A stretch of 64,000 bases of DNA from Prorocentrum cordatum (taxonomy: Eukaryota > Sar > Dinophyceae > Prorocentrales > Prorocentraceae): assembly GCA_963575745.1 (NCBI GenBank), contig CAUYUJ010016349.1, positions 198,902 to 262,901 of the forward strand, in the 5' to 3' direction. Under the pieces are notes generated by a model. It did not search any database and was not told where the DNA came from. It saw only the letters and a list, made by a program, of their open reading frames with translations. The translations under genes and the position numbers were made by a program. Of this stretch, positions 38,394 through 61,965 are shown piece by piece; position 1 is the first letter of the stretch; each line of letters starts with the position of its first letter.

Positions 38394-39563
38394 TGATTGC
38401 CTGCGGCTGCTCCCGCCACCGTGCCAGCCCAGCCGCGTCGGCGGTTTTTGCGCTAGGGGGCGCGTGCGTTTTACAAGTGACGCGTTTGGTTTTTCAAACT
38501 ACGATAATACCTCTGCAGCCATGACGGCCACCACTGGTGATTGTTATGACGGCAGGGGTATTGCATGTGACGAAGACGGCGGGGATGATGATGATGAGGA
38601 TGATGAGGATGATGATGATGGCCTCTGCTGCTGCGAAAACGGCAACCGCGGCGATGACGATGGCGATTCTCCCGCGAGGGAGGCGCCGAAACAGTAGCAC
38701 GTGACACTTAGTCACTTCGGCTGCTTCAGGAAAGCGACGACGGCGACGACGACGGGGGGGAGAAAGGGGAGGAGGAGGAGGAGGAGGAGGAGGAGGAGGA
38801 TGGGGAGGAGGAGGGGGAGGAAGAGGAGGAGGAGGGAGAGGAAGAAGCAACGAAGTAGACATTCGCCCGTTTCGCCCGAGACATTCTCTGACGCATGCGG
38901 CATTGAAATCTAAGGCCCGGCCATCGGAACGTCGCACAGGGCGCGGGGGGGGCGGGGAGGGGAGGGGGGCGGCGGGGGGGGGCAAGGAGAGAAGAGTTGT
39001 CATATGCGGCCCGTCCGTCTTCACTTTTCCAGGGGCCGAAGTTATTATTAGGTGGTGTCTCAGGCGAAACACGTATGCAGCACTGGCGGTGTCAACGCAC
39101 ATTGGCGTTACAATAATGCCACGTTCTTCTGCAATATTGGAGTTCATCTCGGGTCGGTTTGAAATAGACGCCTGAACACTGGCCTTTGGAACTGTTATTT
39201 GTTTCCACGGGCCGAGGCGACGCGGTCCCCGTGTTCGCCCGCCTCGAACGGCCGATTCGTCACACATGACGGCGCTGGCGCCTGCCCCGCCCTCGGCGCC
39301 TCTCCCGCTCAGACGCGGCGGAGGTACCGCGCGTGACGCTCCCGAGACGTGATGTCGAAATGTGCCATTGGTGTCACATGTGACAAGGCGTGTCCCCTCC
39401 CCCTACGCAACTTCCCGATGTGGCGAGGATGTCTCAGGCGATGCGCCCATTTCCAGGGGGGGCACGCGGGCGCGCGGAAGCGCGTGCAGAGGGGGGTAGA
39501 AGACTACCATCAACCGCACCAGACAGCACGACATCGCGGCCCAAGTGCCAGCGGTGGCGGATA
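38394..39563 (+). mobile_element. E1: introner-like insertion in gene A (body family 1)
   Basis: The left end region is GCCTGCGGC..CCCGCCACCGTGCC (TIR 38,412-38,425), the right end GTGCCAGCGGTGGCGGA (39,545-39,561). The body has GAT repeats (38,583-38,620), a GGA tract (38,766-38,845), a block 38,551-38,579 and a block 39,001-39,030 that match E4, and GAGGATGTCTCAGGCG (39,425-39,440). GATA occurs at both borders (38,390-38,393 and 39,560-39,563). Removing one GATA and the insert joins ...PDD to SLLGHC in frame. A GTGCC...CCAG excision (38,421-39,550) also keeps frame, so the true splice borders are open. Confidence 0.7.
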
Positions 39564-40408
39564 GTTTGCTCGGCCACTGCTTGTCAGAGTTATTGCATGT
39601 ACTTGAATCGTGGCTTCATGGCGGCGAGAGGGATCCGCTGGTTATCCTCGATGCAGTCCAGGCGCCGATGAGGGACCTTGGCTATGCGCGCTTCGCGCGT
39701 TCATGCATCCTTCGCCTGAGTTCTGCGATCAGCCGAAGGTGGGATCTTCGGCACTCGAGCTGGCCGCGCCCGCTCTTCACGCTTTGCAGCGCCCGCTCAT
39801 CGGAAGAGCAGCGCAGGGATGTTGCGCGGCGACTGCTCGATGCATCGCGCGAGGAGCTCGGCGTGTACGCGTACGGCGTGAAGCACCGCTTCAACACCGT
39901 GCCTCTGCTGATGAGTGAGGCGCGCAGGAAAACATTGCTGGCTGATGTTCGCACGTTCGGATTCTCCACCGACATCATCGAGAGGCTCAACGCGGAGATT
40001 CAGGCTGGTCGAGTGCATCGTGCGCCAGGTCGCGTCTTCGGCGGGGCGTCCAGGGAGCAGCTGCTGCAGCAGGCGCTCGCCGTGCACGAGAAATGCGGCG
40101 GCGTCGACCCGTTGAGCACGAAGCGAGACGCAGCCCTGAAGTCGTCGGACCTTCGAGTGCAGGCGCAGCCATTCATTGCCGCTGTTCGGCCTGAGTTTCT
40201 TCCAATTGCAGGTGGGCCCGATGGCGCTGCTGCGAGCGCCGCGGCGCCTGAGCCTGTGGCCGTCGACCGCCCCGTGGAGACCGTGCTGGCGAACGCCTCC
40301 ATCCTGCCGGGCGCGAGGGCGGTGGGAGCTGGCGGGGCCGATGGCGGCGGCGGGCCACCTGGCGGCGGCGACGGCGGCGGACCTCTGCCCCCCGTCGGCG
40401 CGGATTGA
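39564..40408 (+). CDS. gene A exon 2
   Basis: This continues exon 1 in frame after E1 is removed: SLLGHCLSELLHVLESWLHG, GVKHRFNTVPLLMSEARRKT, FSTDIIERLNAEIQAGRVHR, EKCGGVDPLSTKRDAALKSS. It ends in a Gly/Ala/Pro-rich linker and a TGA at 40,406-40,408. The protein clearly goes on in another frame from about 40,400, so the stop is probably bypassed by a short intron or is a frameshift (a run of six C lies at about 40,386-40,391). No known domain. Confidence 0.62.
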
Positions 40409-40755
40409 GCTCGTGCATGCTGGAATTGAACCAGACGTTGGCGAGTCTGAAGAGGGCGAAGGGCTCCGCCTTGACGCCCGAGGAGCTGAGCACGGCTCGC
40501 AGCAGGTTCAGGGAACAGTGGCAGCTCATGAATCATGACGCTCGCCACGAGGCCTTCGAGGATTGGCAGAACACGCCTGCAGAGATGGTGCCCGCTGACG
40601 CCCAGGCGCCCGCGTATGCCACTTCCTGGGGTCGAGGTTGCCGCTCGTCCCCGATCTCCTGCGAGGAGTTCTACGAGTGGCATCACTTGCACGGTTGGCC
40701 GACCAAGGACATGCGGGTGTACAATTTTGCAAACTTCACGGTGGCATGGGAGGAG
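40405..40755 (+). CDS. gene A exon 3 (frame +1 relative to exon 2)
   Basis: Encodes SSCMLELNQTLASLKRAKGS, LTPEELSTARSRFREQWQLM, NHDARHEAFEDWQNTP and CEEFYEWHHLHGWPTKDMRV, ending FANFTVAWEE as the sequence turns into a GGA repeat. The helical, charged composition is unlike the other frames. The link to exon 2 needs a one-base shift or a tiny intron. Confidence 0.6.
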
Positions 40756-40915
40756 GGAGAGGAGGAGTAGGAGGAGCACGTGGAGGAGTAGGAGGGGGGA
40801 TGGGGGGGGGGGGGATCGAGGCTGGATGGGAGGGGGGAGGAGGAGGAGACAGAGGAGAAGGAGGATGAGTAAGAGAAGGATCAGCAGATCGCATTCGGAT
40901 GCTTCCGCCTAGCAG
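40756..40915 (+). other. gene A intron made largely of GGA repeat
   Basis: A 160-bp GGA/GGGGGG-rich stretch ending in a clear acceptor CCGCCTAGCAG at 40,915. No GT donor lies at the left edge, so the donor is non-canonical or lies within the repeat. Confidence 0.55.
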
Positions 40916-41218
40916 GAAGACTTCGAGTGCGATGCTGCCGACGACCTGGTCGTCCGCGCTGAGCCCATCCCTGACCTTCCAGACTTCAGCCTGTGGGGCT
41001 GCGGCAGGAACGCTCGGCCTGTTCCTCGGGCAACGGTGCCAAACGTTCAGCAGTTCCATTTGATAGAAAATGGCATTCACAACCTCATGGCACGTTTAAC
41101 GAGACCCGCCGCCGATGCCGGCGACGTGATGATCATGGTGGAGGGCCACTCACTGGAGAACCCAGCCAGCCGAATGCGCTTCGTGGGTATCATTTCGGGC
41201 ACGTTTTACAATCCGAAG
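40916..41218 (+). CDS. gene A exon 4
   Basis: Follows the CTAGCAG acceptor and encodes EDFECDAADDLVVRAEPIPD, LPDFSLWGCGRNARPVPRAT, VQQFHLIENGIHNLMARLTR, VEGHSLENPASRMRFVGIIS and GTFYNPK, then a canonical donor (AAG/GTGATG) at 41,219. Phase 0. No stop in this frame. Family not recognised. Confidence 0.66.
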
Positions 41219-42011
41219 GTGATGCGTCCGCTAATATGTAACCGCCCTCCCTAAGCCCATCCAGAAACGACCACTGCCCATCCAGAAATCTGATGTGCCC
41301 GACGTCCGCTAGTGCATCCCCGTCAGCCCATCCACTAACGACCAATCCCATCCAGAGACGATATTGCCAATGCCCCAGCCCATCAGAAACGACATGAGAC
41401 ATGCACCCCTGTCAGCCCATCCATGAACGACCGACATCCGAACGAGTTGCCTTGGCCACGGAATTCCACGGGGGGAGTCAAATTGTAAAAGGGGTTCTGA
41501 GCACGCTCTGAAGGCTCTCGAGGTGGCAGTCTGCGCGCCGTTTTTTTTGGGGGGGGGCTATCGGGGGGCGCCGCCTGTGACGCCGTCTTGCGACCATCTT
41601 GGGTTCTTGGGACAGCATAGCATCACAATATCACGGTCTTGGGATCCTCCTCATCTCCCTCCTCCTCCTCCTCCTCCTCCTCCTCGCCCATCCTCGCCCA
41701 TCCTCCTCATCCTCCTCCTCCGTCTCCTCCCCCTCCTCCTCTTCCTCCTCCCCCTCCTCCTCCTCCTCCCCCCCCGCCCAAGAGCACCCTCAGGCTCTCA
41801 GGAGAGCCGCGGTAGACACCAGTCTCCATGATGAATCATGCCGCTCCCTCTTGGTGACCACCCATGGCACACGGTTCGGGGAGCGGGGAGGCGAGATTGA
41901 AGCCAAGACGCCGCCTAAGAAACCCTTTCCCTTCCTCCCCATCCTCCTTCTCCGCCTCATCCTCCTTAAGGGCGCCGTGCGCTGTGCTCCTAGGTTGCCC
42001 ATCGACCCAAG
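41219..42011 (+). other. gene A intron with CCCATCCAGAAACGA minisatellite and CCT repeat
   Basis: GT donor at 41,219 and acceptor CCCAAG at 42,011, both phase 0; AAGGTG is directly repeated at the two borders. It contains 6-8 diverged CCCATCCAGAAACGA units (41,260-41,440) and a CCT tract (41,655-41,775). The minisatellite recurs after exon 6 (43,825-44,120). Confidence 0.65.
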
Positions 42012-43031
42012 GTGTTTGATATCGCACCGAACACGTTCCAAGTGAGAGCGAATGCCCACAGCGACGTGCTACACACGCCGTGTCTTGTGGAGATCGATGT
42101 TCAGAACTGTAGGAGCGCTGGTCGATTTCGTTGTATTGGCTATGAATCTTCAGATCACTTTGTACTGAAGTTGGTTCGGAACCTGATCGACATGGATTTG
42201 TACTTAGTGGATTACGACGTGGATGTCGATGTTGATAACAGTCTGAAGTGGAGCAGGATCTCAGCTGTGCACTTGCAGGGTGAGCTGTGGAGGGCGGGGA
42301 TGACGCGCCCGTTCGGGTACCAGAGCCCCAGCAGCCGTGGGCCTTCTGCGTCCGACCTGGGGAGGCTGAACACCAGCGACCCCTTCGAGACGCCTCCTGG
42401 GCGCGGTGTTGGGCGCGGCGCTGGGCGCGGCGCTGGGCGCGGCGGCCGCCGCGGAGGGGGCGCAGGCAGAGGCCGCGGCCACGGAGCCGTAGATGGCGAG
42501 GGTCTCGGCGGCGGCCCCGACGCCCACGGCGACGTCGACGACGTTGACATGCCGCCGTTGGTCGACGACTTGCTACCAGCTGGCGCGGCGATTGGCGAGG
42601 AGATGGACATGCTGGAACACGAGGCCGAGGATGCCGACCTCGACGGCATGGAGGAGCTGGGCGACACGTTCGGCTTGGAGGACGGCGTCATCGAGGGGCA
42701 CCCTCCAGGACTGGTCGGCGAGGACGGCGGGGACTTGGACGAGCATGACGATGCTCGCGGTGCTGAGCTTCTTGGGGTACCAGCTGAAGTACCCGATGAG
42801 ATCGCAGCTGGAGCGGCAGACGGCGCTGCTGACGTCGGCCTGGAGCCTGAGCCTGGCGAGGCCGAGGAGCCGCCCGCGCCTGCGGCACCGCTCCCGCCGC
42901 CGCCGCCAGGGCCGCATGATCTCGTTGGCCCGACGCCGAGTGGATACTTCCACATGGATGGTCGCCAGGTGTTGCGCATTTTGCGCGGTCATCCTGCCAA
43001 CAGCGTGACAGTGAATTGCTATCATACTGGC
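42012..43031 (+). CDS. gene A exon 5 with RG-rich and acidic linkers
   Basis: Continues exon 4 in phase (NPK then VFDIAPNTFQVRANAHSDVL). It has a globular part (CLVEIDVQNCRSAGRFRCIG, then LVRNLIDMDLYLVDYDVDVD), an RG-repeat linker (RGVGRGAGRGAGRGGRRGG), a long acidic region (MDMLEHEAEDADLDGMEELG) and a Pro-rich stretch. It ends GYFHMDGRQVLRILRGHPAN, SVTVNCYHTG at the border of E2. RG repeats often bind RNA or are methylated; here that is only a possibility. Confidence 0.68.
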
Positions 43032-43596
43032 CTTCGGCGCATCCCGCCACCGCGCCTGAGTTGTCGGTCGGGGGCATATGTCGGCAGTATGCCCCGCCCC
43101 CCGCTGCGCCTCGCCAGCGGAACAAGTACCACTTGAAGCATCTCTGCAATATGCCTCAAGTGGTACCGAATACGTGTCACTCGGGACATGGCCGTTGCAT
43201 GCCTCAAGTTGTACCGACCAAGTACCACTCGGAGCATGTCGCCAATATGCCTCAAGTGGTACCGAGCAACATACCACTTGAAGCATGTTGGCAATATGCC
43301 TCAAGTGGTACCGAGTAGGTAGCACTTGAAGCATGCCCGTTGTATGCCTCAAGTGGGACCGATGAAGTACCACTTGGGGCATGCCGTCAGTATGCTTCCA
43401 GTGGTACCGATCACGTACCACTTGATGCATAGTGGCGCGCCTGCACGCGGGTGGACCAGAGATATTTTACAAGTTGGGCGCTGGTCCCCTGGGTGATTCC
43501 TCGGGGTTGAAGCCTGAAATTCAAGGGATGCGGCAGAAAGCCCGACGGCACGCCCACTCCGTGCCTCGAGGCACGGTGGCGGGTATGCATGCTGGC
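43032..43596 (+). mobile_element. E2: introner-like insertion in gene A (body family 2)
   Basis: The left end is CCTTCGGCGCATCCCGCCACC (TIR 43,043-43,056, with a GC instead of GT after CCACC), the right end GGCACGGTGGCGGG (43,570-43,583), embedded in the palindrome CCGTGCCTCGAGGCACGG (43,559-43,576). The body is a hairpin-repeat array (43,125-43,430) plus a unique segment shared with E3. CTGGC is repeated at 43,027-43,031 and 43,592-43,596. Excision between them joins VNCYHTG to CRLCIGDSRC in frame, restoring a Cys/His-rich motif (CYHTGCRLC). Confidence 0.72.
43125..43430. repeat. hairpin minisatellite in E2
   Basis: About six units of roughly 50 bp, each an imperfect inverted repeat: ACCACTTGAAGCAT, a short loop, then ATGCCTCAAGTGGT, joined by ACCGANNACGT-like spacers. 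The same unit forms the array in E3. Confidence 0.88.
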
Positions 43597-43792
43597 TGCA
43601 GGCTGTGCATCGGCGACAGTCGGTGCCCATCGGGCGAGGTCTTGAAGACCTGGCTGTTCGAGGTGCCAGCAGCAGCCCCTGGCGCGTCCGCCGCGGAGCG
43701 GCGAGAGCTCATGCAGCGGCACGCGCAGCTGGCCAAGGACAGGTGGTACGTGAACAAGAAGGCCAAAGCCAAAGCGGCACCTGCGCCTCCTG
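43597..43792 (+). CDS. gene A exon 6
   Basis: After E2 the frame reads CRLCIGDSRCPSGEVLKTWL, FEVPAAAPGASAAERRELMQ, RHAQLAKDRWYVNKKAKAKA, ending APAPPG at a possible GT donor (43,793). The lysine-rich end may be nuclear-targeting. No stop or next exon can be assigned; the frame stays open into minisatellite sequence to 44,328, which I do not count as coding. Confidence 0.6.
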
Positions 43793-44420
43793 GTGAAAAC
43801 ATCAAAGAACCCCCATCAGGTCTTCCAGAAACGGTGGCCCATCCAGAAACGATTCTCCGATGTCGCCAGCCGTCCAGCCTCGGAACTGCAGATATTGAAC
43901 TGTCAGCCCAGCCGCTGGGACCCGAAGAACAGCGGTCGAGCCAGCTCATCCAGAGGCGATGCCAGCCCAGCCCATTCAGAGGCAATGCCAGTTGCCAACC
44001 TATCCAGAAACGATGCCAGCCAAGCCCATCCAGAAGCGATGCCAGCCTGCCCTGGCCCACCCCGAAGCGACATCACCAGCCCATCCAGAAACGGCGTTCA
44101 TCTATCCAGGAACGATGCTCCATGGAGGGGTTAGTTTCCAGAAGCCAAGTGGGCGCACGCAGTGACAATGAGGGATTCGCAGTGCCACTCATGCTTCGGT
44201 GTGCGTCTCTGTTCGCACAAATTGGGCTTGCATGTTCTGAATGCGTATGTCCGCATGTATGCATGTTTGTGCATGTAGATACATGTAGCTATATGTCTGT
44301 ATGTGTATGTGTGTATGTCTGTAGGTGATGCTGTTTGCATGTATGTGTGTGTGTATATGCATGTGCATGTAGATGTGTATGTGCGTGTAGGTGTGTTCAT
44401 CTACGGTATGTTACGTGTAA
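43793..44420 (+). repeat. second CCCATCCAGAAACGA minisatellite and GTATGT-rich tract
   Basis: 43,825-44,120 holds about ten diverged CCCATCCAGAAACGATGCCAG units, the same family as in the 41.2-42.0 kb intron. 44,240-44,400 is a degenerate GTATGTGT tract. Confidence 0.8.
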
Positions 44421-45290
44421 CGTGTAACATTCGATCCACATGACTTGCGGCAGCCCCTGTCACTGTGCCTGGGCGATGGGTCAGAGGCGTCGTGGGTGTT
44501 GGTTGGGAGCTCGTGGTTGGCCTCTGCAGGGCCCCTGCGAGGCAGACTCGAGGCATCTGGAAGCCTCTTGGAAGCAGGTGCGGTGCCTCACGGGGCCTCT
44601 TTGGCGTCTCGCGGGCGCCTCTTTGGGGCATCTTGGGGCTCCTTGGCGGTCCTCGGGGCCTCTTGGGGGGCATTTGGTGGTATCTTGGGGCGGGAGAGGG
44701 GGGTGGGCGATTGCGGCTCCCCACTCGGAGGCTAAGATCTTCGCGAGGTGCGTCGAACCATAGATCCCCCCAAACTCATGGGGGAAATGGCGCAGCGCGG
44801 CTGAGGCCGCGATCCTCGCGAGGGGTGTAGACAATGATAATCCCCTGGATCCCCCCCCCCTCAGCCACGGCCCCCGCGGGGGGTGCCAAAAAGAGTGACC
44901 TCCGCGGTTCTCGAGGCGCGCGCGTGGGGAGGGAGGGGAGGGGGGAGTGGGTTCTGCCGCATGCCCTAAAACAAAATCCAATAACTCACACAAGGAACTA
45001 TGTAATGTTTAGAGGGTTGTGTGTCTATGTGTGTACGTGTCATGTGTAACAATGTTATGTGTCAGTGGTGGTGTCTCTATATGATCGTATGCGTCCACTC
45101 GTAACTGTCATGTTATGTTTCGGTTTGCACCGTTGTACCCAATTATGTGTAGCAAACAGATGGTTGTTCCCCGTATCCCAAGATTGGGGTTGTTTCATAT
45201 CTTAAGATGTGGCCTTCTTATTACTTGGCGCCTCCTCCTCCCTCCTCCCTCCTCCTCTTTTCTCTCTCCCCTCCTGTCGGACTTACTCAT
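44421..45290. other. repeat-rich, no gene; GGGGCCTCTTGGGG minisatellite
   Basis: 44,500-44,700 consists of diverged GCCTCTTGGGGCATCTTGGGG units, related to 58,190-58,790. The rest has no supportable gene. Confidence 0.6.
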
Positions 45291-45530
45291 GCTCACACTT
45301 GCTCATACTCAGACTTACTCATACGCAGACTTACTCATATTCAGATTTACTCATGCTCAGACCTACTCATACTCAGACTTACTCACACTCATACATACTC
45401 ATACACACACTTACGCATACACAGACTTACTCACACCCATACGTACTCATACACAGCTACTCATACACAGACTACTCATCTCAGGCATACTCATACTCAG
45501 ACCTACTCACAGACTTACCCAACACATATC
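45291..45530. repeat. CTCATACTCAGACTTA minisatellite
   Basis: Units of about 12-18 bp (ACTCATACTCAGACTTACTC), more than a dozen, slightly diverged. Confidence 0.88.
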
Positions 45531-46110
45531 AGATTTGGAGGATGTCTCAGGCGGGACGCTCGTTTCAGCGCCCCTAAGGGGAGCCGCCAGGGGTGATTGC
45601 ACGGGTTCGTCGCGGCCATTTTGTGGGGATGTCTCAGGCGGTTTGCCTGTTTCCGGGCTCAACATCCTTCGCTTGGAGAGCAGATTGTGGGGATGTCTCA
45701 GGCGGGGCGCTGGTTTCAGCACCCCTAAGGGGAGCCGCCAGGGTGATTGCACGGCTCGTTCGCGGCCATTTTGTGGGGATGTCTCAGGTGGTTTGCTTGC
45801 TTCTGGCTCAACATCTTCGCTTTCGGGCGATTTGAGGGTGTCTCGAGCGAGGCGCTCATTTTCAAAAGGGTGTCTCGATCGTTGCTTGTTTTGTGGCCGG
45901 CTCGCGGCCTAAGGGGGGCCGCCAGGGGTGGTTGCACGGGCTCGTTCGCGGCCATTTTGTGGGATGTCTCAGGCGGTTTGCTTGTTTCTGGGCTCAACAT
46001 CCTTCGCTTTCGGAGCAGATTTGGAGGATGGCTCGAGCGAGGCGCTCATTTTCACCCCCCAGGTGGGCCAGATTTTGAGGGTGTCTCGATCGGTTTGCTT
46101 GTTTTGGTGG
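45531..46110. repeat. 150-185 bp tandem satellite with GATGTCTCAGGCGG motif
   Basis: Three higher-order units, aligned on CCTAAGGGGAGCCGCC at 45,573, 45,724 and 45,907. Each contains two GGATGTCTCAGGCGG half-units, a GTTCGCGGCCATTTTGTGGG block and GGGCTCAACATCCTTCGC. The GATGTCTCAGGCG word also occurs in E1 (39,427) and E4 (61,625, 61,706). Confidence 0.85.
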
Positions 46111-46129
46111 CCAGGCTCGTCGGCGCAGA

Positions 46130-46790
46130 TTCTTCTCAGGATGCCACAGGAGGCTCCAACAGGCTCCAGGAGGCCCCAGGAGACCACATGAGGTCCCATG
46201 CCGCATCATGAGGCCACAGAAAGATTCAAGAGGCCACAGGATGTCCCAAGAGGCTCCAGGAGGCCCCAGGAAGCTCCAGAAGGCCTCAGGAAACCACGGG
46301 AGGTTCCAGGAGGCAACAGGAAGCGCCAGGAGGCCTCGGAAGGCAACAGGAGGCCCCGAGAGGCCCCAGGAGCAATGGGGGGCCTCAGAAGGCAACATGA
46401 GTGGCTCCAATCCCATGTGTTTTACGCCTGCTCCTATCGATTGGGCCTCACCTGGAGCGCGCGTCTTTGATGTTCTACGTATGTTTATGTAGATGGTCCT
46501 TCTCCTGTGTGCACAATCCTAAATGTTTTACTCATGTTCCTGTATATTGGGCCTCTCCGGGGGCACGAGTCCTTGGTGTTTTACGCGTGTTCCTATATAT
46601 TGCCCTTCTCCTGTGGCTCTAATCCGCAATGCTTTATGCACGTCTGTTGCTATAGATTGCGCCTTTCCTGGGGCACGAGACCTTCCTAGGAGGTCCCAGG
46701 AGGTCCCAAGAGGCCCCTGGAGACCCCAGGAAGCCCCCGTAGGTTTCAGGAGGCCCCAGGAGGCCCCAGGCTCATGCACAGAGACGCGCT
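46130..46790. repeat. AGGCCCCAGGAGGCTCCAGG minisatellite (reverse orientation of the CCTCTTGGGG type)
   Basis: 46,130-46,390 and 46,680-46,775 are diverged GAGGCCCCAGGAGG units, the complement of the CTTGGGGCCTC arrays at 44.5 and 58.2 kb. Between them (46,400-46,620) a CCTATCGATTGGGCCTC..CTATATATTG element is repeated two to three times. Confidence 0.75.
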
Positions 46791-47159
46791 CGTACTACTG
46801 AGGCTCATTCACACTCCAATTCATTCGCAGTTAGATGGATGCCCAGACCGTCACAACTGAAGCCCGTTAAGATTCGAAAGCTCTTGCGCCTAGACATTCA
46901 CGGCGGGCAGGCCCATGCGAGTAGATGCACATATGGGGAGCTCCACGCAGTGAGTAATTGTATTTAGCACCTGTATATCATTATCCGTAGGTTTCGGTAT
47001 GTATCTATAGTGTAGCCTGTGGTAACCAGTTTCATGTATCTGTTTAGATCCGACCGTCTTGTTACCTTAGCACCCCCAATGCGCCCACTCTAAAAACATC
47101 AATTTCGTTACCCACCTACCCCTGCCCACCCGCCCATCCGCTCCCGCAACCTTTTGTCG
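46791..47159. other. no gene seen
   Basis: Unique-looking sequence of lower GC. Nothing recognisable. Confidence 0.5.
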
Positions 47160-48300
47160 CCGCTCGTCCGTCGTCCCGCGTGATCGTTCGTTCGTCGTTC
47201 GTTCGTCGGTCCTGCGTCGTTCAGCGTCGTCCGTCGGTCATTCGTCGCCCGTCGGTCGTCGCGCGTCGTCGTCGTCCGTCGTCGTTGTCGCCCGTCGTCG
47301 TCCGATCGCGCGCCCCGCGTTGGCGCCGACGCGCCGTCGGCACGACGACCGCGCACAGCGCCAGTAGGAGCAGGGGAAAGCCTTCTGGATGCAATCCCCC
47401 TTTTCTTCCTGCTCCTCCCCCCCCCCTCCTTCTCCAGTTCCTCCTCTTCCTCCTCCTCCCCATCCTCCCCCCTCCTCTTCCTCTTCCTCCTCATCCTCAT
47501 CCTCCTCCCCCCTCACCCCCCCTGCCTTTTCCGTCCTCACCTCTCCTCCCTCCGTCCTCCTTCTTCCTCCCTCGCCTCTCCTCCCTCCTCAACTCTCCCT
47601 GATCATTCCTCCAACCTTCCTCCTTTCTCCTCCTGTTCCTCCTCCTCCTCCATCCTTCCTCCTTGTTGTTCCCCGTGTCCCTGATGACCGTGCCGTGCTT
47701 GTTCCTCCTCACTTTTCCTCCGTGTCTTCCTCCTCCTCCTCCTGCTCCTCCTCCTCCTTTTTCCCTCGTTCTCCCTATCCCCCCCCCCTTCGTCTTTCTC
47801 CACTTCTTCCCCCCTCCCTCAGCCTACATCCACCATCCTTCCCCCTTCGCCCTCCCTCCTCCCTCCCCCCTCCGCCTTTTTGTATCCTCTTTTTTTTTTC
47901 CTCTATTAGCATCCCTGGGCTTTCCCCCCTCCTCCCATTCCTTCATCTTCCTTCCTCCTTCCTTCCTTCTCCTCGCTGTTCCCTCCCCCCGCTTCCTTCC
48001 TCCGTATTTTTCTGTTCCTGTCCCTCCTTGTCTCCCGTTTCTTCTTCTTCTTGTTCGTCTCCCTTATCCTGCTCCCGTGTTGTGCCCCCCTCGTATTCCG
48101 CATTCCTCGTTCTCCTCCTCCTCCTCCTCCTCCACCATTTCCGCCGCTCTCCCATGCTCCCTCGTTTTCCATCCTTCTCACTCATCACTCCTCCCTCCTC
48201 ATTCCCCCCTCCCCCCCTCGCTCCCCCCCCCTCCTCATTCCTCCATCACCGTTCGCCCGCCCCTCCCCGTCCCCCCCCCCCCATCGCTCTGCAGCCCTCG
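47160..48300. repeat. GTC-rich then CCT-rich low-complexity tract
   Basis: 47,160-47,300 is GTC/GTT-rich; 47,390-48,290 is a degenerate CTCC/TCCT polypyrimidine tract. Very long open frames (Pro/Ser/Leu on plus, Arg/Glu/Gly on minus) are artefacts of composition. Confidence 0.88.
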
Positions 48301-52455: not shown

Positions 52456-52475
52456 GGCATCCCAGATCCGCGGCA

Positions 52476-52630: not shown

Positions 52631-53648
52631 GCTGGATGGTGTAGGCGGTGGCAATGTGTTGTCGAGCTGTTGGCTCGCGGATGCGGTTCAGCCTTCCCCA
52701 ATCAGCTTCAGTCGTGTCCTCCTCGGCGCCTCCTCAACTAAAGCGTGCTACCATAGCATGTCATGTTCATGTTTCTCAATCGTGTCACGTCGTTCTATCT
52801 GCTCCGCCTTGCTCCTCAATGCGAAGTGCCTCGCAAAGTGCTGACGGCATCCGCTCCAGGCTCGCTGCAGCGCCGCCCAGCCACCTGACAGCTTCACAGG
52901 AGGCATCGGTTTGAGCTCAGACGAGCTGTTTAAGTGTTTGATGAAGCCCGAGCGAGAATGTTCTTTCGCTGTGTGAGCCTAGGAGGGCGCGGGAGCGAGG
53001 GGGCGAGGAGAGGCCGAGGAGCGAGGAGCATTGAGGAGATGGGTTCTGTTTTGCTAGCTGCCGTCCGCCGCCCAGAGTTGATGTGCATTGTGTGATGCCC
53101 ACTGTCTGGGGTTCGCAATATGTGAGGTCAATCGTTTCGGGTGAATTGTTTCGGCGCCGCTCTTACTTGGTGGTCCGAACGGTTTCGTCGCTGCTCTTAT
53201 TTGGTGGTCCACGCTGCTAGTGTTTGGGGTTGTCACTGGCACTTTATACTCATAGCGTTTGGGGTCAATGCTGTTCCAGCACGGTGTTCGCGCCGTTACT
53301 GCTTAAGGTCACGCTGCTACTGTTTGGGGTCCACTCTTGCATTTGCTACTCATACTGTTTGGGGCCATTGCTTCTCCAATGTGGCGTTCACGCTAATACT
53401 GTTTGGGGTCGCCGCTGGTACTGGTTGGGTTCAATGCTGGCAATGTCTGGGGTCTGTTTAGGGCCCGTGCGACCAAACCGAACTAGGTTTAATGATGTGC
53501 AGGGTGGCCTGGCAACGAAGTACCTGGTACCCTAATGGTTTCGCAACTGATCTCCCAACTCGTAGCCCATGTTTACGGCTTAGATGTGGGCGTGTTGTGT
53601 CAGTTATTCGGCATTGCATTGTCCATCTAGCTTGCCTAAACTCGCGCA
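52631..53648 (+). other. intergenic, with TGTTTGGGGTC minisatellite
   Basis: 52,631-53,130 has no gene. 53,150-53,460 holds about nine diverged units of about 30 bp built on GCTACTGTTTGGGGTC. The same unit recurs at 56,215-56,370, in each case a few hundred bp before a gene start. Confidence 0.75.
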
Positions 53649-54469
53649 TGGCATCTTCTTCGATGGGCTTTGAGCTTGTTGGGAGCCTTCAGCTCGTGGC
53701 CACTCTTCCAGACCAGCCCGTTGGATTCGAGAAGCGCATCGACATCGAGATTCCAGCAACGCTATTGCTTGTCGGAGGAAAGGTTGATGAGCCAGAACAC
53801 GTTCCTATGGAAGTGCCCTCTGCAATCGTGGAATCGGGCTGGACTGGGAGAGTCGACAACAGCGTCGAGAGCAGTTCGAGGTATTCGGAACTCGTGACTG
53901 CAGGCCGCCTTGACCCTGCTGGGCCTGACGTCCCGACCCTTCCTCAAGTAGGACCGTTGCGATTCGATGCGAATCTGTGTTTTTCTCGTCCCGTTGCGAA
54001 GGAGCCTGAGTATCGTCCCGAGCCTGCCCAGCGGCTGCATGAGGAGTGTGCTAAGACTGATAGCGAACGATCTGATTCGCCGCAGCGGCCCTGTCAGAAC
54101 CTGAGTGACGATGTCGTGCAGGTAGAGGACAGCCCTGTCAAGGAGACGCGTGAAGGCTTCAGATTCCTCACAATTCCTCCGCCGTGTTCGGCTGAACGGC
54201 TTGAGACACCGATCAAGTTTTCGAGCTCAGGTGCGGCCCCGTCGAAGGAAGGGTGCAGCGACATGATGTTGGCTCGGTTTGCGGACGGTGGCGATCTGCC
54301 GTGCGATCCGAAGAGCCCGTCGCCTTTGCCTTTGCCTAAGAAGCGCCGCTGGACATTGCTCGGGAATGCACCCGAGGCGAATCAGCAGCAAGAGTCTTCC
54401 GAATGCCCCTTCAGAATGGCCGGCCATCAGCTAAGGGGCGCGGCGTCTCTGCCCGCGGAGTTTAGTTAG
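53649..54469 (+). CDS. 273-residue unrecognised protein with basic motif
   Basis: The ATG at 53,649 (MASSSMGFELVGSLQLVATL) is the first Met that gives natural composition; the frame is open further upstream but reads as shadow. The protein is Pro/Ser/Glu-rich and probably largely disordered, with a hydrophobic N-terminal segment (IDIEIPATLLLVGG) and a late basic motif LPLPKKRRWTLLG that could be a nuclear signal. Stop TAG at 54,467-54,469. No family recognised. It sits between the HU-like gene and gene B on the same strand, preceded by the same minisatellite as gene B. Confidence 0.5.
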
Positions 54470-54785
54470 CAACTCAGCTGCATGCTGGGTGCCAGCGTCG
54501 CCTGTTTTTTTTCTGCGGCATGGGGGGGTGGGGAGGCGGCGGACGATGAGCATCGCGAGCACGATCGCCGTATATAGCATTTAACGATTAGGGTCAGGGG
54601 TGGGACGAGGGCAGGGCGCGTGCTCACGTTCCAGTTCCGAGCTTCTCGCCATTGCCGCTGCTGGCACAGCAGTCGTTTGCGGCCAATTAGATTGGGTGGG
54701 CTGTTTGGGGACCGTTCAGCGTTCAGCGCAGGCTCGGTTGAGCACGTGATTGTCTTCCTCCTCCTCCTCCTCCTCCTACCTGCCT
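54470..54785. other. no gene seen
   Basis: Short T and G runs near 54,505-54,535 and a CCT tract near 54,757-54,780. Otherwise unremarkable. Confidence 0.5.
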
Positions 54786-55555
54786 GTGATCCGCCGCAGA
54801 ACGAACGCCCCCAAAGATCAACCAAACGAGCGCCTCCAAAAACCCGCCGCACCGAGCGCCCCCACGGATCCGCCACCCGCCGCGGAACGAGCACCCCCAG
54901 AGATCCACGAAAACAAACACCCCCAAAGATCAGCCAACACGAGCACCCCAACCATATCAGCCAAACCGAGCGCGCTACCGAACGCGCACCCCCAACCATC
55001 CACCATCAAGAGCACCCCCAACGACCCGCCAAAACGAGCACCCCCAAGGGTCCGCCACCCCCCACGGAAAGAGCACCCTCAACGACCCGCCACTACAAAC
55101 ACCATCAACGGCCAACCACAACGAGCACCACCACACATCCTCCAAACCGAGCACCTCCCAAATATCAGCCATCCGCCACGGAACGAGGACCTCAAAGATC
55201 AGCCAAAACAAACACCCCCATCGACCCGCCAAAACGAGCACCCCCAGGGACCCGCCAAAACGAGCACCCCCACGTATCAGCTAAAACGAGCACTCTCAAG
55301 GATCAGACATCCGCCGCGGAACGAGCACCTCCAACGATCTGCCAAGCCAAGCACCCCCAAAGATCCGCCAACACGAGCACCCCCAACGATCACCCAACAC
55401 GAACACTCCCAAAGCCCTGCCAAACCGATCACCCCCAAGGATCCGCCATCCGCCGCGTAACGAACACCCCCAACGATCAGCCAAAACAAACACACCCGAA
55501 GATCCGCCACCACAAGCACCCCCCCAGAGATCAGCCAAACCGACACCCCACGGCG
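54786..55555. repeat. CGAGCACCCCCAAAGATCCGCCA minisatellite
   Basis: About 25 diverged units of 25-33 bp (ACGAGCACCCCCAAAGATC, variants with AGCCAAAAC or CGCCACC). The open frames across it are repeat artefacts. Confidence 0.9.
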
Positions 55556-55639
55556 CGCGCGGTGGGGGGCGGGGGGGGGGCCTAGAAAATATGTTCAAGC
55601 CATCACAGAAGGAAACAGAAAACAGTCTAACTTCTAACA

Positions 55640-55665
55640 CGCCCCAACGTGCGAGGCACGGTGGT
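55640..55665 (+). repeat. orphan right terminus of the E-element type
   Basis: ACGTGCGAGGCACGGTGGTGGATGTT closely resembles the E3 right end (58,948-58,973), including the CGAGGCACGGTGG core. No matching left end is evident upstream, so this may be a truncated or solo end. Confidence 0.5.
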
Positions 55666-55720
55666 GGATGTTATTCATATCATTCTCAAAGGTCTTTGCC
55701 AATATGCCGTCGCCCTGAGC

Positions 55721-55848
55721 GGCCGCCTATTAGCAACGAAACGTGCCGTGCCAAGCTCGCTCTCATCATCTTCGCGCGGCGGCGACGGTGGGCGCCCCCG
55801 CGGTGGGGGCGAGCCTGGCACAGCACGCGTTGTTGCTAATAGGTCGCC
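55721..55848. repeat. 128-bp foldback (inverted-repeat) element
   Basis: Arms 55,721-55,760 and 55,809-55,848 are about 40 bp each, near-complementary and enclosing a 48-bp loop. They share CCTATTAGCAAC at the outside and GTGCC(A/C)..CTCGC inside. MITE-like, or a structured RNA. Confidence 0.8.
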
Positions 55849-56561
55849 GCAACTCGGCGCGGTTGTTGTTAACCCTCTGGGCGCCTTGTTCGGGCCAGCT
55901 TGACGCCTGCTTGGTTTTCCCTCGGAGCTCACTAAGGGCTCTTTCGAAGATGGCCTAAAGGTGCCTCCCTCCCGAGGAGGAGAGAACCCGCCCCACGGAT
56001 GCCTGAGCAGGATGCAGGTGATCTTAGCCACGCAGTCACATGTTTGAGCCAGAATGGCAAGTTCAAGCGTGACCGTGTTGGTGGCGAAGGCCCCCTCTTC
56101 GGGTCTATCACCATCACCGTCGCCAGCGCCATAATCATGCGCATTACCAACGCCATAACACAATGCACGCCATCACTGCACTTAAACCGGAGTTTGCCTA
56201 AGTCGCGCTGTATTGGATTGTGCTGTACTGTGTGGGGTCCATGCGCTACTGTTTGGGGTCGATGGTCTATGTTGCTACTGTTTAGGGTCCACGCTATATT
56301 TGTTTGGGGTCCATGATGCTACTGTTTGGGGTCCAAGCTGCATATGTTTGGGTTGACGTCGCTAAAGCTTGGGGCTAATGATGATGAGTCGGATGGCAAT
56401 GGCGATGAGAGTCGAATGAGTATGTAATAGTTGGGGGTCCAAGAGCGAGAGCCGACGTTCTCAGCGTTGATGGAAGTCCAACTGATGCAATCGAGGCTCG
56501 CGAAGTTCTTGCATAGTGACGCTTGACCGAGCGTTGTCCGCCAATTGTAGTTCTGCTCGGC
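55849..56561 (+). other. upstream region of gene B with TGTTTGGGGTC minisatellite
   Basis: 56,215-56,370 has six or seven TACTGTTTGGGGTCCATG units. No gene. The ATG of gene B follows at 56,562. No clear spliced-leader relic. Confidence 0.6.
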
Positions 56562-57693
56562 ATGTGCGATGACAAAACGGAGAGCCAGTCAGCGATTGGC
56601 GGTTTCGGCGTGGAGGATGCATTATGGTTGAATGAGGCCGATGCTGGCTCCTCGGTGGCAGAGCAGGTTGAGATGAAGAGTGAGCCGCCCACGCCGGTGC
56701 CTTGCAAGTCAGCCGTGCATCTGCCGGATGTGATTTCACCCAGGACGCCCGCGGCGCCCCCGCCTCCCAGCGCTTGCAAGCGCCCGAAGGCCGAGAAGAG
56801 GCAGTCGCCGTCTGCTTCTTCGAGGGGTGACGCATGCGCCGTAGCGGACGCGGTGCAGCCCCAGCGGCAAGGACGGCTCAGCAGGAAAGCGGCAATCGAC
56901 CTCCAGGAGGCGTTGGAGTCAGGCATCTCGATCGCACGCCCGCGGGACACCGACGACAGCGTGATCCAGCGGGAGCAGGCCCTCGGCGGTGTCGATGATG
57001 ATGGCTCGACAATTCACAGGTGGTCCATCGATGCGAAGTTGCCGAGCGGCGTCGTGTGTGGTGGTTTGAGTCGGATACGGGGCACGCTCAATGACGTCCA
57101 TTGCGTTCGACTGGCCACGATGGAGTGGTTCGACGCCTACATCCCAAGCACCATGCAATCTCTCATGCGCCGCCTCACGGACTACGAGGGCGACTGCGTC
57201 GGCGGGGTCGACCTCGAGTTGGAGATTGCCTACAAGCAGCTCGCCAGTCGCGCCGCCGCACTCATTCTGTTGCATAAGGGCCTGAAAGCTTACCTCGATA
57301 CCCGCAAGTCGTCCGAGTTAGTTGCCACCCTGAAGCCATTCAACGTCATCAGGGCGTTCCTCAAGGCTATAGATCGGGACCTGGCCCCCGACCTGTCCGC
57401 CGTGCACGCCCACGCTGTCTTTGTCCAGACCTTCATCGATGGCAATAGCATTGTTGATGCACTTGCGACGTTGGACGCCAAGGATCTCGCGATCTCCCAC
57501 GGGAAGATCCAGGAGTACTGGAAGACACTTGCGAGTGCCGACGATGATGAGAAAGGCGCCAACGCAAAGGACGAACAGCGCAGCTCAGACGAAGGCGACG
57601 ACACAGGTACGAAGAGGAGGAAACGGAGGAAGGCGACGGCGAAGAAGGCGTCACAGAAGCAGGGGGGCTCACGTCATGTTCGATATCTGACTG
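56562..57693 (+). CDS. gene B exon 1, unrecognised protein
   Basis: The ATG at 56,562 (MCDDKTESQSAIGGFGVEDA) opens 377 codons. The N-terminal third is disordered (PPTPVPCKSAVHLPD, PRTPAAPPPPSACKRPKAEK). Then comes a helical region: CVRLATMEWFDAYIPSTMQS, LMRRLTDYEGDCVGG, LEIAYKQLASRAAALILLHK, LKAYLDTRKSSELVATLKPF. The end is acidic then strongly basic (TGTKRRKRRKATAKKASQKQ), a likely nuclear signal, before RYLTG at the border of E3. No known domain; repeated helices suggest a structural or scaffold protein, but this is inference. Confidence 0.7.
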
Positions 57694-57770
57694 GCCTTCG
57701 GCACATCCCGCCACCGTGCTTGGGTGGTCGGTCTGGGGCCGATGCCGTCTGTATGCCCAAGGGGTGCCGA

Positions 57771-58135
57771 ACAAGTACCACTCGAGGCATGTCGGGGGTA
57801 CGCCTCAAATGGTATCGAACAAATCTCACTTGAGGCATGCCGCATGCCCGCTGTGTGCATGCACGTGAGGCCTGTCGGGCGCATGCCTCAAATGGTACCA
57901 AGCAAATACCACTTGAGGCATGTCGGCAGTATGCATGAAGCGGCACCGAACGCGTACCACTTGAGGCATGCCCGTTGTATGCGCCAAGCGGTACCACTCA
58001 CGTACCACTGTAGGCATGCCGTCGGTATGCCTCAAATGGTACCCAACAAATTCCAATTGAAGCATGGCGGCGGTATGCTGTTTCGGTACCACTTGAAGCA
58101 TGTCACATGTCCGTTGTATGCCTCATGTGGTACGT
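57771..58135. repeat. hairpin minisatellite in E3
   Basis: About seven units of roughly 50 bp (ACCACTTGAGGCATG, loop, TATGCCTCAAATGGTACC), homologous to the array at 43,125-43,430. Confidence 0.87.
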
Positions 58136-58189
58136 GTGCCTGGGGGAGGGCCAGAGACCGCATGGACGTTAGTTGGGATCTCGTGGCTG

Positions 58190-58790
58190 GCCTCTCGGGG
58201 GGGCCTCTGGTAGGCAAGTGTGGGGCCTCTTGGGGGTCATGTTGGAGCGTCTTGGGACATATGTTAGGCCTCTTGCTTGGGGCGTCCCCAAGGCCGTTCG
58301 GAAGCCTCCTGGGGCCTCCTTGGGGCCCCTTGGGGCCTCCTGGAAGGCGTCTTGGGGCGGAAAGCTAAGGTTTCCAGTTGCTGGTCACACTCCGAGACCC
58401 TCATTCCGCCTGTCTTGGGGGCCCCTTGGGTCGTCCTGGGCGGCTCTTGGACCGTCTTGGTGCCCTTTGGGGCCGTCGTGGGGACGCCTTGGGGGCATCG
58501 TGGGCCGCCGTGTAACGATCTTGGGGGGGCTCTTGGGCCGTCTTGGAGCGTCGGAAAGCCGAAACGGCGATGAGGGAACCAACATAGAAGAAACCAATGA
58601 AAATCAACGACTGGTGCCTGTTGGGCCCTCGTGGGCGGCATCTTGGGTCTTGGAGGCCTCTTCGGCAGTCGTGGGGCCATGTTGGGCGTCTTGGGGCGAT
58701 ATGTCGGCGACTCGGGGGCGTCTTGGACAATCCTCGGAAACCTCTCGGGGCCCTCTTGGCCAATCTCGGGGCCCTCTTGGGTCGGAACAA
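58190..58790. repeat. GGGGCCTCTTGGGGCGTCTTGGGG minisatellite in E3
   Basis: Diverged units of 18-25 bp, the same orientation as 44,500-44,700 and opposite to 46,130-46,390. Confidence 0.82.
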
Positions 58791-58982
58791 GTCACGCGGG
58801 AAGCTGCGCCAAGCCCCAGGGGGGGCACGCCAGCACGCGGTGAGCCCCGAGAGATGCTGCAATTTGGGCACTGGCCCAGGCCCCCTTGGGGCTGGGGACT
58901 GAGGCTCAAGGGATGGGGCAAAGTACTTGGGGACACGCCCACTCCATGCCTCGAGGCACGGTGGCGGATGTTTCCCGAGCTG

Positions 58983-59130
58983 CTCAAGCCGCCGCCCGTC
59001 CACGTTTTCAAGACCTTGTCCGAATGCTTCAAGCAGGTCTTCTACAGGATCCCCGCGAAGGCGATTGCTGGGCCAACTGTTTGCGTCTGGGTCGGGGCGG
59101 CCTCGTCGGGCTGTGTTCTCTCGGCTCGCG
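58983..59130 (+). CDS. gene B exon 2 (short, borders approximate)
   Basis: In the frame that also gives an in-phase join to exon 1: AQAAARPRFQDLVRMLQAG, LLQDPREGDCWANCLRLGRG, GLVGLCSLGSR, then a possible GT donor near 59,130. Other frames are open too (one reads FPELLKPPPVHVFKTL), so frame choice is tentative. Confidence 0.4.
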
Positions 59131-59465
59131 CGTGGGGCGGGGGCCTCCCGAGGGGCCCAATAGGGTGGGGCGCAGGCAGGAGACGACGCAGGTGGAGGTG
59201 GAGGAGGGAGTAGACCCAAGTCGGGCACAGGGAGTTTAACGATATGCTTAGGAGAAGTCGCCAGTCTAAGCACCCCTGGTAAAAATGCGAACGTGGGCCT
59301 CATGAGGGTCTGTCCCTCATCGAGCGTCGGGCGCTGGCTGACGCGTTCGGATCAGGAGGTCCAGGGGCTGGTGGCTCATGGGCTTCAGGCCCGTCGGATT
59401 CTGTCTACTCGTGGGTCATGGGCGATGTTGTCTGGCTATGGGTTCTGGTTTGAACATTGCTTCAG
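59131..59465 (+). other. gene B intron
   Basis: Ends in a good acceptor ACATTGCTTCAG at 59,465. No terminal motif of the E type is visible. GGTGGCTCATGGGCTTCAGG (59,369) is echoed by GGGTCATTGGCTTCAGG (59,525) in exon 3. Confidence 0.5.
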
Positions 59466-60719
59466 GGTCGTCCAATGGTGTCTGACCTGGTAGTTGACGC
59501 GTCTGATTTGTCTGAACTGATCTTGGGTCATTGGCTTCAGGCCGAGGTCAGTCCCCGACAATATGTTCTCCCTTGCCCTTGCGAGGCGATGAAGGATGCG
59601 AAGTCTGTGGATGTGTTAATCAAGGAGATCGCGGCTGTGAGCGCCAAATGGGACGACGTGATGTGCGGGCAGACCGGCGCCCAGACTTTCTCCAACATGC
59701 TTCACAGTTGTTCGGTGATTTGGCAGAGCGCCTCCCACGATGATAGGAAGAAGCCAGAGGTTGCAAAAGTTCGGCTGGCGCGCCGAGACATCATCGCGGC
59801 GGCGCGCTCGGACGCTCCTCCGTTGTCGGACTTCGCCAGGGCCATGGCGGGCCTTCCCGAGACAGGGTACGAGGTGACGAGGTTGGCGATGGGCTGCGCT
59901 AAAGAGCTAGCGCAGGCGGGCATCGAGGATGAGATCGTGGAGCAGAAGTTCAGCGCGTCGGAGGAGTACTTCATCAAGTGCATGGGCCCCGCTATCGAGG
60001 ATGGTGCGGCTTGGCTGATGAATGGCATCGAAGGCAGACGCGTGGACATGACTACCATGTGAAGGACGATTGCGCACGTGCAGTCGTACGTATCTGACCT
60101 CTTGGATTGCTCGACGAGGTGGTCGTCTGGTGCGTTGCGGGAGCACCTCCAAGATATGATGGACGGCTGCGAGAATTCTCTTCGAGTGTCGTGCTGGGCC
60201 AACTTCGTCATGGTGGCCGATGCTCGCGACGTTCTGGTGGACAAGCTGAGGTCGATCACAGATGCAAATGAGCCGAGTTCCGAGGGCAAGCAGGCCACTG
60301 CCGAGGAGTCTGGAGGCGGCGACGTCATTGTGAAGGGACAGCCCGTCGAGGAGGGCAACGTACCAGTCGTGTCTGGAGCTCCTCTCGCCCGCCACTTGCC
60401 TGCCGCGGCGCTTGCCGACATCAAGACGTTGTCGGAAAGAGTGGGCGAGTTCGGGACCGCGGCGATGGTAGTCGTTGATTGCGTTCAGAAGTGGATCGAA
60501 GTGTTGATCAAGAAGATTGGCGAGGATATCATCACGGCTGAGCTGCAATCCTTCTCAGTGCCATTGCCGCGCGAGGCGTCGGCGCAGCTGCAGCAGAACA
60601 TCAAGGTTCTCCTTGATATGGCAAGCCACCTCATCGCCTGGGCGCAGGTCTGCGAGAGCGACTGCATGTCCCCTTCAGCCAGGTTCGAGCAGCTGACGCC
60701 CGATAGCAAGTATCCACTG
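59466..60719 (+). CDS. gene B exon 3, interrupted by one in-frame TGA
   Basis: The frame reads VLPCPCEAMKDAKSVDVLIK, EIAAVSAKWDDVMCGQTGAQ, FARAMAGLPETGYEVTRLAM, YFIKCMGPAIEDGAAWLMNG, DMTTM, then TGA at 60,060-60,062. It resumes in the same frame as RTIAHVQSYVSDLLDCSTRW, VSCWANFVMVADARDVLVDK, continuing to FEQLTPDSKYPL at the border of E4. Protein-like composition on both sides says the stop interrupts one exon: a TGG-to-TGA change, read-through, base-call error, or early pseudogenisation. Helical, no known domain. Confidence 0.65.
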
Positions 60720-61965
60720 CCTGCGGCAAGCCCCGCCACCGTGCCTGTCCAGCTGCCTGCGCGAGGAAGCACTGGTGTCCGCTGCCAGTGTTCCAACTTG
60801 AGACGCATTGCGTCTCCAATCTTGATGGTGGCGGTAATGATGGTGGTGGCGGTGATGCTGAAGATGACGATGATGATGATGATAATGATGATGATGCAAT
60901 GATGATGGTGGTGATGATGATGATGATCATCATCATCATCATCATGATGACGATGGCAGGAGTGTCACATGCGACGAAGACGGTAAGGATGATTGCGGTG
61001 ATCATTAAACAAACGATGGAGGTCCGTGACGGTAATGATGATGATACGGTATGGTGGTGATCTCCAGCGGGGCAAGCGCCGAAACTGTCATGCGTGACGC
61101 CTCGGCCGTTACGGGAGAACGGAGACGGCGATGATGATGAGACAGAGTAATATGAGACCCGTCGCATGTGACACGTTCCGTCTGCACTTCTCGGAAGCGT
61201 CGCGCGCGGCCCGTCTGCCGTTTCTGAGCGGACGAAGCCATCAAAGATGATGTTGGCGATGGCCTCGCTCGACATCGGTCCCGAAACCGTCTTGCGTGAC
61301 ATCTCGGCCGTTTCGGGGCGGACGAAGACGGCGTTGGTGATGAGGGGTAGGGGGGGAGGGGAAATTGGGGAGAAAAAAAAAAGCACATGCGGCACATGCG
61401 GCATGCGGCACCTTCCGTCTTCACGCCCCGAAGACCCCGATGCAAGTTTGAGGGGGTGTCTCGAGCGAGCCGCTCCGTTGCAAACAAAACTGATGGAACC
61501 AAATCAAATGGTATTTGAAATTTGAAGCATGTCGTAATGTTCTGCCGCGTTTGATGTCATCAGATGGCGCTTTGAACGGCGTCCTAGGTCCTAGACGCAT
61601 CCCTTTACACGTCCCACGTTTCGAGGATGTCTCATGCGAAACTGCGCCTTTTAAAGTTTCGAGGGTTAGAGTTGGGTCCTCGATTTCAACGCCACCGTTG
61701 CCCGAGGATGTATCAGGCGCAACGCGCAACTTTAGCATGATGCATCTGAGGATACGGCCCCCTAGCGTGTGATCGTTGCGGGGATGTCTCCGACGACATT
61801 GTCGATCTTCGGGAGGAAGGCTCTCAAACGGGCCGAGACCCGTCTGCCGAGCCTTACCCCTCCTCAAGAGACCCGTGTAGGGAAAGCAGGTCAGGGCCTT
61901 ACCCGTGCCCAGTACGTGGCAGTCCTTCACGCCTCAACGTGCCAGGTGGCACGGCGGCGGGTCTG
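60720..61965 (+). mobile_element. E4: introner-like insertion in gene B (body family 1)
   Basis: The left end is CCTGCGGCAAGCCCCGCCACC (TIR 60,732-60,745), the right end GGCACGGCGGCGGG (61,948-61,961) after GTGCCAG. The body has GAT/ATC repeats (60,860-60,950), ATGCGACGAAGACGG (60,969) and GCGGCACCTTCCGTCTTCAC (61,405) shared with E1, and GAGGATGTCTCATGCG (61,623). CTG is present at 60,717-60,719 and 61,963-61,965, in the same codon phase; removing one copy and the insert joins SKYPL to MGLVSFAKVHVR without a stop. A later acceptor (TTTGCAAAG, 61,990) with a donor GTGCC at 60,741 is also in phase. Confidence 0.72.

Follow-up and report, generated by a model that had tools for sequence, protein, structure and literature searches.

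Intron-like copies of an abundant inverted-repeat element family in two genes of the dinoflagellate Prorocentrum cordatum

A 64,000-nucleotide stretch of the Prorocentrum cordatum genome (GenBank assembly GCA_963575745.1, contig CAUYUJ010016349.1, positions 198,902 to 262,901), hereafter the window, carries two genes whose reading frames are interrupted by four elements, E1 to E4, with shared inverted termini. Sequence comparisons indicate that these elements are probably copies of an abundant non-autonomous transposon that inserted into exons and turned into introns. The family, its ends and its abundance are directly observed, as are the empty sites of E1 and E2 in paralogs of the first gene.

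Results

Four interruptions with shared termini

As a preliminary description of this DNA had proposed, E1 to E4 share their termini in one orientation relative to the host frames (four of four), and at each of them one long frame ends within the element and a second opens within it and continues past it. The 5' ends read CCCGCCACCGTGCC, exactly at 38412 and 60732 and with one change each at 43043 and 57707, and the 3' ends read GGCACGGTGGCGG, exactly at 43570 and 58955 and with one change at 61948; the 3' end of E1 is a more degenerate variant, GCCAGCGGTGGCGG (39547-39560). With at most one mismatch, the terminal 13-mer occurs eight times in the window (GC content 61.4%), against a mean of 0.27 and a maximum of 2 in 100 dinucleotide shuffles. 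A recurrent CCTKCGGC that had been taken for a separate upstream context is indeed present, but it is the left end of the element itself. The elements and their parts, all on the plus strand, are as follows, a slash marking the candidate splice junction here and below.

38394..39561, plus strand: E1, type A element; left inverted repeat 38412-38425, right inverted repeat 39547-39560 (degenerate); empty site in paralogs
43022..43583, plus strand: E2, type B element; inverted repeats 43043-43056 and 43570-43583; core of 48-bp tandem units; empty site in paralogs
57686..58968, plus strand: E3, type B element; inverted repeats 57707-57720 and 58955-58967
60713..61961, plus strand: E4, type A element; inverted repeats 60732-60745 and 61948-61961; common to the close copies found
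38394..38411, plus strand: left end of E1 with GCC TGC GGC hairpin; candidate splice donors GA (38395) and GC (38406)
43022..43042, plus strand: left end of E2 with GGCC TTC GGC hairpin; candidate GC donor 43037
43584..43601, plus strand: putative former exon sequence between the right end of E2 and the candidate acceptor GGCTGCAG/G (43601)

Empty sites in paralogs of gene 1

The comparison with empty sites, made here on paralogs, bore out the insertion of E1 and E2. Both sites were searched with intron-free queries, and the match rows were counted by hand, twice. For E1, the query was a 96-aa protein joined across the element, and the best 150 of 168 candidates were scored. The site was crossed in one piece by 119 of these 150 rows, at 30-52% identity and in 115 cases without a stop; the other 31 were half-matches (16 downstream, 15 upstream) that represent the window and its close copies, 81-98% identical, in which the two halves lie 1.13-1.34 kb apart. 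Once E1 is removed, the window reads LLDPDDSLLG where ten paralogs align LLD...SLIG or similar, and the element sits at the same position in the ten close copies whose edges were read. P0001, a public P. cordatum protein, is also uninterrupted at the E1 site.

For E2, the best 150 of 234 candidates were scored. Half-matches made up 26 rows, the downstream ones starting at query residue 25-27 and reading into the element, and the site was crossed by 122 of the 124 other rows, 114 of which have no stop. The two exceptions both come from locus C2807, where the frame changes. Five close copies that were read through carry E2 and are 98.4-99.3% identical over 1251 bases, and a sixth was matched over 500. 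Overall, the window and about 11-15 close gene copies are split at the E1 and E2 sites. Two paralogs, C17265 (1581 aa) and C5200 (1281 aa), span both sites in one open frame, so E1 and E2 lie in one gene. Since the coding sequence is contiguous in more than 110 paralogs at each site, E1 and E2 appear to be inserted, intron-like members of a repeat family that has inverted ends, and intron gain by insertion is well supported by these alignments.

The opposite history, intron loss, would make the contiguous paralogs retroposed cDNA copies and the elements at the E1 and E2 sites later replacements or invaders of older introns. We consider it improbable. Such a history would suit the known retroposition of genes in dinoflagellates, the large number of contiguous paralogs, the very long frames of several of them (1581 aa and more), and the lack of one fixed frame-restoring position for the element ends. 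However, the exon edges as aligned to the paralogs lie at, or a few bases from, the ends of E1 and E2, which leaves room for only a very short older intron; excising E1 precisely gives back the ancestral protein length; and, among the best candidates recovered with the intron-free queries, no other scored paralog is split at either site, apart from the frame change at C2807.

An abundant family with two subfamilies

Word counts over 4,128,499,153 bases on 21,875 contigs gave 23,066 exact matches to the terminal 13-mer, against 717 for the reversed control word, a 32-fold excess. Of 40 further exact 13-mers, 30 reached at least 25 bits against an end profile, 19 as left ends and 11 as right ends; extrapolating 19 of 40 from this non-random sample, drawn from the first contigs listed, would put the genome-wide number of left ends at around ten thousand. 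Correctly ordered and oriented left-right pairs were found in eight of 20 unselected 10-kb regions around listed 13-mers, with a weak ninth pair at L067. When further left ends were followed inward over at most some 1.7 kb (L138: 1.1 kb), a right-end profile appeared in two of 11, L132 and L138, L132 additionally having a right repeat with two mismatches at another position. These yields, eight of 20 and two of 11, indicate that ends without a partner, or with an unrecognised one, are common. The 17 pairs analysed below are the four of the window, the eight from the 20 regions, four chosen for close-set ends in the list, and L089; L090, the weak L067 pair, L132 and L138 are excluded. Their outer 13-mers are 61 to 1601 bp apart.

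The ends define two subfamilies, A (E1, E4) and B (E2, E3). As aligned over 14 A, 25 B and 35 right ends (omitting L118 and L119, near-identical to L095), the left end extends about 16-22 nt past the 13-mer, the left repeat being subterminal, and conservation at the right end ceases 2 nt after it. The left 13-mer is preceded by TATCCAGCTGCCTGCGGCAAGCC in type A and by TGGCCTTCGGCCCATC in type B, there with a weaker TCTAA ahead of it. Tandem cores consist of 48-bp units in E2 and E3 and of GATGAT tracts in E1 and E4.

The left end likely forms a small hairpin, GCC-TKC-GGC, as judged from the pairing of its arms: 145 of 190 cells were paired in 38 ends (L125 omitted), against a mean of 131.5 (sd 3.4) when partners were shuffled within each subfamily, and one of 2000 shuffles reached the observed pairing, the pairs having been picked post hoc on sequences already inspected. 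The outer pairs T-A and C-G of subfamily A become G-C and T-A in B; the last outer pair is bulged, and only 7 of 14 A ends pair there. A second hairpin at the right end, CCGTGCC-nnn(n)-GGCACGG, has one arm within the inverted repeat. In minimum-energy RNA folds the inverted repeats pair with each other at 10 of 14 positions in E2 (fold z -10.6, 20 shuffles) and 13 of 14 in E3, and at 0 of 14 in E1 and in E4; because the pairing is predicted for E2 and E3 only, we do not put it forward as a mechanism.

It is barely credible that the shared ends are chance, or a splice-signal motif of ordinary introns. Splice-site neighbourhoods can look alike between introns, and many ends lack a recognisable partner, but this account is opposed by the 32-fold excess of the 13-mer across the genome, by the conserved sequence that adjoins the 13-mer on its inner side in two subfamilies, by the paired ends, and by a family copy lying in a TA microsatellite (L077).

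Several B copies (L068, L086, L098, L120 and L122) have a common extra left flank that bears a hairpin, for example CCCCTGCAAGCAGGGG, and are perhaps insertions into one other repeat family. A 34-bp motif like GGATGTCTCAGGCG is repeated in E1 (39422), in E4 (61449) and at 45535-46107. The window also holds a weak left end, TTGCGGCAGCCCCTGTCACTGTGCC, at 44424-44525, with B-type inner sequence (12.8 and 21.8 bits), and an orphan right end, GGCACGGTGGTGG, at 55637-55677, whose 13-mer (55655-55667) has one mismatch; they are possibly one 11-kb element or two remnants, and Pfam gave no match for eight frames between or near them. On viral contigs an end pattern matched 56 loci, eight with a loose partner within 4 kb; we take these as chance in GC-rich phage DNA.

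Candidate splice sites

The splice sites of E1 to E4 are predictions based on phase-matched GT/GC/GA-AG pairs. Scored against ten paralogs, the best pair for E1 joins a GA donor at 38395 to an AG at 39564 (166.7, the next pair scoring 160.2 and precise removal 171.9). For E2, scored against two paralogs, it joins the GC donor at 43037 to GCAG/G at 43601 (213.0, against 228.5 for a rule-free junction). In E4, a GC donor at 60726 (G/GCAAGC) would preserve phase with AAAG/G at 61989. For E3, a donor at 57701 and CAG/G at 59047, picked by eye beyond the 60 nt scanned after the right repeat, would keep phase. According to the published genome study, P. cordatum donors are GC in 51.4% and GA in 23.8% of cases, and 79.7% of acceptors are AGG (PMC10666404).

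We infer transposition as the route by which the copies arrived, and splicing as their fate at the exact sites given above. One non-autonomous DNA transposon family with 13-bp inverted repeats would have spread copies genome-wide, mostly into non-coding DNA, its left-end hairpin supplying GC or GA dinucleotides usable as splice donors. A copy landing in an exon in the orientation of E1 to E4 would thereby have a donor in or beside its left end, and former exon sequence just past its right end would provide the acceptor AG; the spliceosome would then remove the copy, and the insertion would be a new intron.

Genomic location of family copies

Pair flanks of 90 nt each were scored by codon usage learned from the window exons. 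Those of E1 to E4 reach the 87th-94th percentile of coding score on both sides; these flanks belonged to the training set, so their scores are no independent test. Coding DNA on both sides was found for one of the 13 non-window pairs, L089 (91st and 89th percentile, with an equally high antisense score upstream), which by coding score and frames is a further candidate interruption of a coding sequence. With 150-nt scoring, the coding flag (>0.1) was raised at 5 of 30 classed single ends and at 12 of all 40 ends; in calibration, exon stretches raised it in 87.5% of cases and random stretches in 10.2%. Most sampled copies are therefore in non-coding DNA, a class that includes long introns.

The preliminary description had held that a motif found mainly outside genes and unpaired would speak against mobile introns. 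This is partly what we find, with one of 13 pairs flanked by coding sequence and pairs in eight of 20 regions. Its proposal of mobile introns, two in each gene, is supported for E1 and E2 as inserted, intron-like elements of one gene, and is not supported for the family as a whole, most sampled copies of which are in non-coding DNA. Since most sampled copies lie outside exons, the family is best described as a general non-autonomous DNA transposon that is able to act as an introner.

Target sites and transposon type

TA adjoins both ends of E1 and of E2, and an A/T preference is seen beside the element ends. The frame of E1 is compatible with a TA duplication, whereas that of E2 is not compatible with any. 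A terminal-inverted-repeat element with a TA target, that is, a miniature inverted-repeat transposable element of Tc1/mariner type, is possible. Longer duplications were examined and rejected, as across all pairs they did not clearly exceed the null: 7 bp at left -26/right +20 (L066) and at -24/+21 (L073), and a match of 9-13 bp around E2.

The family ends may also resemble, on the opposite strand, those of DINE-1-like Helentrons, a likeness that is unproven. The architecture of Helentrons, HINEs and DINE-1 is set out in Thomas et al. (2014; PMC4067079), where the subterminal inverted repeats measure 12-15 bp, compared with 13 bp here. Read on the opposite strand, the family shares with them a short inverted repeat that has one arm nested in the 5' repeat, and a stem-loop beside the 3' repeat, which corresponds to our left-end hairpin; tandem-repeat or microsatellite cores in E1 to E4 and a high copy number are further likenesses. 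In contrast, the 3' repeat lies about 16-22 nt from the end, against 38-60 bp in the mite elements of that source. Helentrons are expected to insert into TT with no duplication of the target; at the present ends the adjoining bases show an A/T preference. The genome itself gave 151 Helitron_like_N matches over the cut-off from the best 150 of 1615 candidates, with none in 14 control genomes. Many of these matches sit in long open frames.

We regard it as doubtful that the introns are made by a DINE-1-like Helentron family, with the donor carried by its 3' stem-loop in the opposite-strand reading and with one-way insertions into exons giving introns that lack a target duplication. If this were true, rolling-circle transposons would be a route of intron gain in dinoflagellates. 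We know of no report of Helentrons as introns. In a literature search that left subscription papers such as Roy et al. (2023) outside its reach, Prorocentrum, transposable elements and Helitron were not found together, and Helitron and introner coincided only in works titled on fungal genomes and on plant MSH1.

Host genes and their copies

The exons flanking the elements are as follows.

36584..38393, plus strand: gene 1 exon upstream of E1 (open frame 36557-38524; paralogs)
39564..40405, plus strand: gene 1 exon downstream of E1 (open frame 39500-40408; paralogs)
42003..43021, plus strand: gene 1 exon upstream of E2 (open frame 41994-43136; paralogs)
43602..43812, plus strand: gene 1 exon downstream of E2 (open frame; paralogs)
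56562..57685, plus strand: gene 2 exon upstream of E3 (open frame 56520-57833)
60063..60712, plus strand: gene 2 exon upstream of E4 (open frame; copies)
61962..63429, plus strand: gene 2 exon downstream of E4 (open frame 61750-63429; copies)

The family of gene 1 (36584-43812) comprises more than 100 paralogs, and many of them have frames above 1000 aa. Pfam gave no family for 10 and 9 window frames (one in both sets) or for two paralog frames, and protein look-ups with the joined gene 1 exons found no match; a look-up with an intron-free gene 1 paralog found P0001. A unit of at least 25 kb that includes both genes (36500-63430) is found again on about twelve contigs, with 98-99% identity across the six stretches that were read, and represents either recent segmental copies or a large mobile unit.

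Several results weigh against E1 to E4 being transposon-derived introns. Regarding the history of insertion, no empty site was found for E4, whose 27 matches (43 scored) are all half-matches or fragments, found in the window and at 12 further loci; many family ends have no recognisable partner; and the signal of target duplication over the 17 pairs reaches only about the 95% level of shuffled pairs, with p = 0.15 over 16 pairs (L077 omitted) when gaps are allowed. Regarding splicing, the best option for E1 requires a GA donor, the top two options for E2 are one unit apart (213.0 and 212.0), and E3 has no phase-matched GT/GC/GA-AG pair within the scanned 20 nt before and 60 nt after its repeats. 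The coding-flagged single ends are three sense and two antisense, so that any sense bias comes only from E1 to E4. Finally, the window copy of gene 2 contains an in-frame TGA (60060-60062) and has an upstream frame of 279 aa, compared with 386-490 aa at 12 other loci, and beside E2 six recent copies differ by nine amino-acid-changing and five silent codon changes. The TGA may be a nonsense mutation, an editing site or an assembly error; given that 12 other copies stay open there, some copies may be decaying, and the nine changes against five indicate weak constraint near E2.

These last observations, together with the non-coding location of most sampled family copies, are what would be expected if E1 to E4 were plain, unspliced transposon insertions in decaying pseudogene copies and the window paralogs were dead. 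Such an explanation is nevertheless unlikely. E1, E2 and E4 occur in some 12-16 locus copies (window included) whose exons are mostly open, a 655-aa frame is kept in 10 of 15 upstream matches of E1, and of the 12 full matches downstream of E4, 11 keep 559 aa; moreover, random death does not require the same orientation in four of four insertions.

Discussion

Introners have been described by Gozashti et al. (2022; PMC9860276) and Farhat et al. (2021; PMC7789003), and in dinoflagellates by Roy et al. (2023, as cited). In P. cordatum (strain CCMP1329; assembly of 4.15 Gb in 22,724 scaffolds, GC 59.7%), inverted repeats of 8-20 nt are over-represented close to the two ends of introns (Dougan et al., 2023; PMC10666404). 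As far as these sources go, introners in dinoflagellates and inverted-repeat introns in P. cordatum are thus already published. The earlier survey covered any inverted repeats in introns, whereas the present analysis concerns one family with its ends, counts and empty sites.

Reading E1 to E4 as transposon copies turned introns, we find much that accords with these accounts of introners. The elements are repeated, non-autonomous and bounded by inverted repeats, and they lie intron-like in the coding sequence of a dinoflagellate, with GC or GA at the left edge and with intron-free relatives of gene 1 in existence. Introners interrupt several coding sequences with similar elements, as E1 to E4 do in two genes, and place a new intron at a formerly uninterrupted site, as is found for E1 and E2. 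Many introner families, though not all, have inverted terminal repeats, and some duplicate their target site. The differences are that sampled copies lie mostly outside exons, so that placement as whole introns, a common though not strict criterion for introners, is not seen here; that the 17 pairs span 61-1601 bp, compared with median family lengths of 30-654 nt (PMC9860276); that the left repeat is subterminal; and that the acceptor would seem to be recruited from former exon sequence downstream of the element.

The origin of new introns is a long-standing question. One genome here provides insertion-bearing gene copies together with more than 100 uninterrupted relatives for two of the insertions, and, elsewhere, thousands of ends belonging to that family, which in the sample lie mainly outside exons. 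With such material one can study the frequency and the orientation with which an ordinary transposon turns into an intron, as well as the requirements for its splicing. If the Helentron-like ends were confirmed, rolling-circle elements would join the makers of introns.

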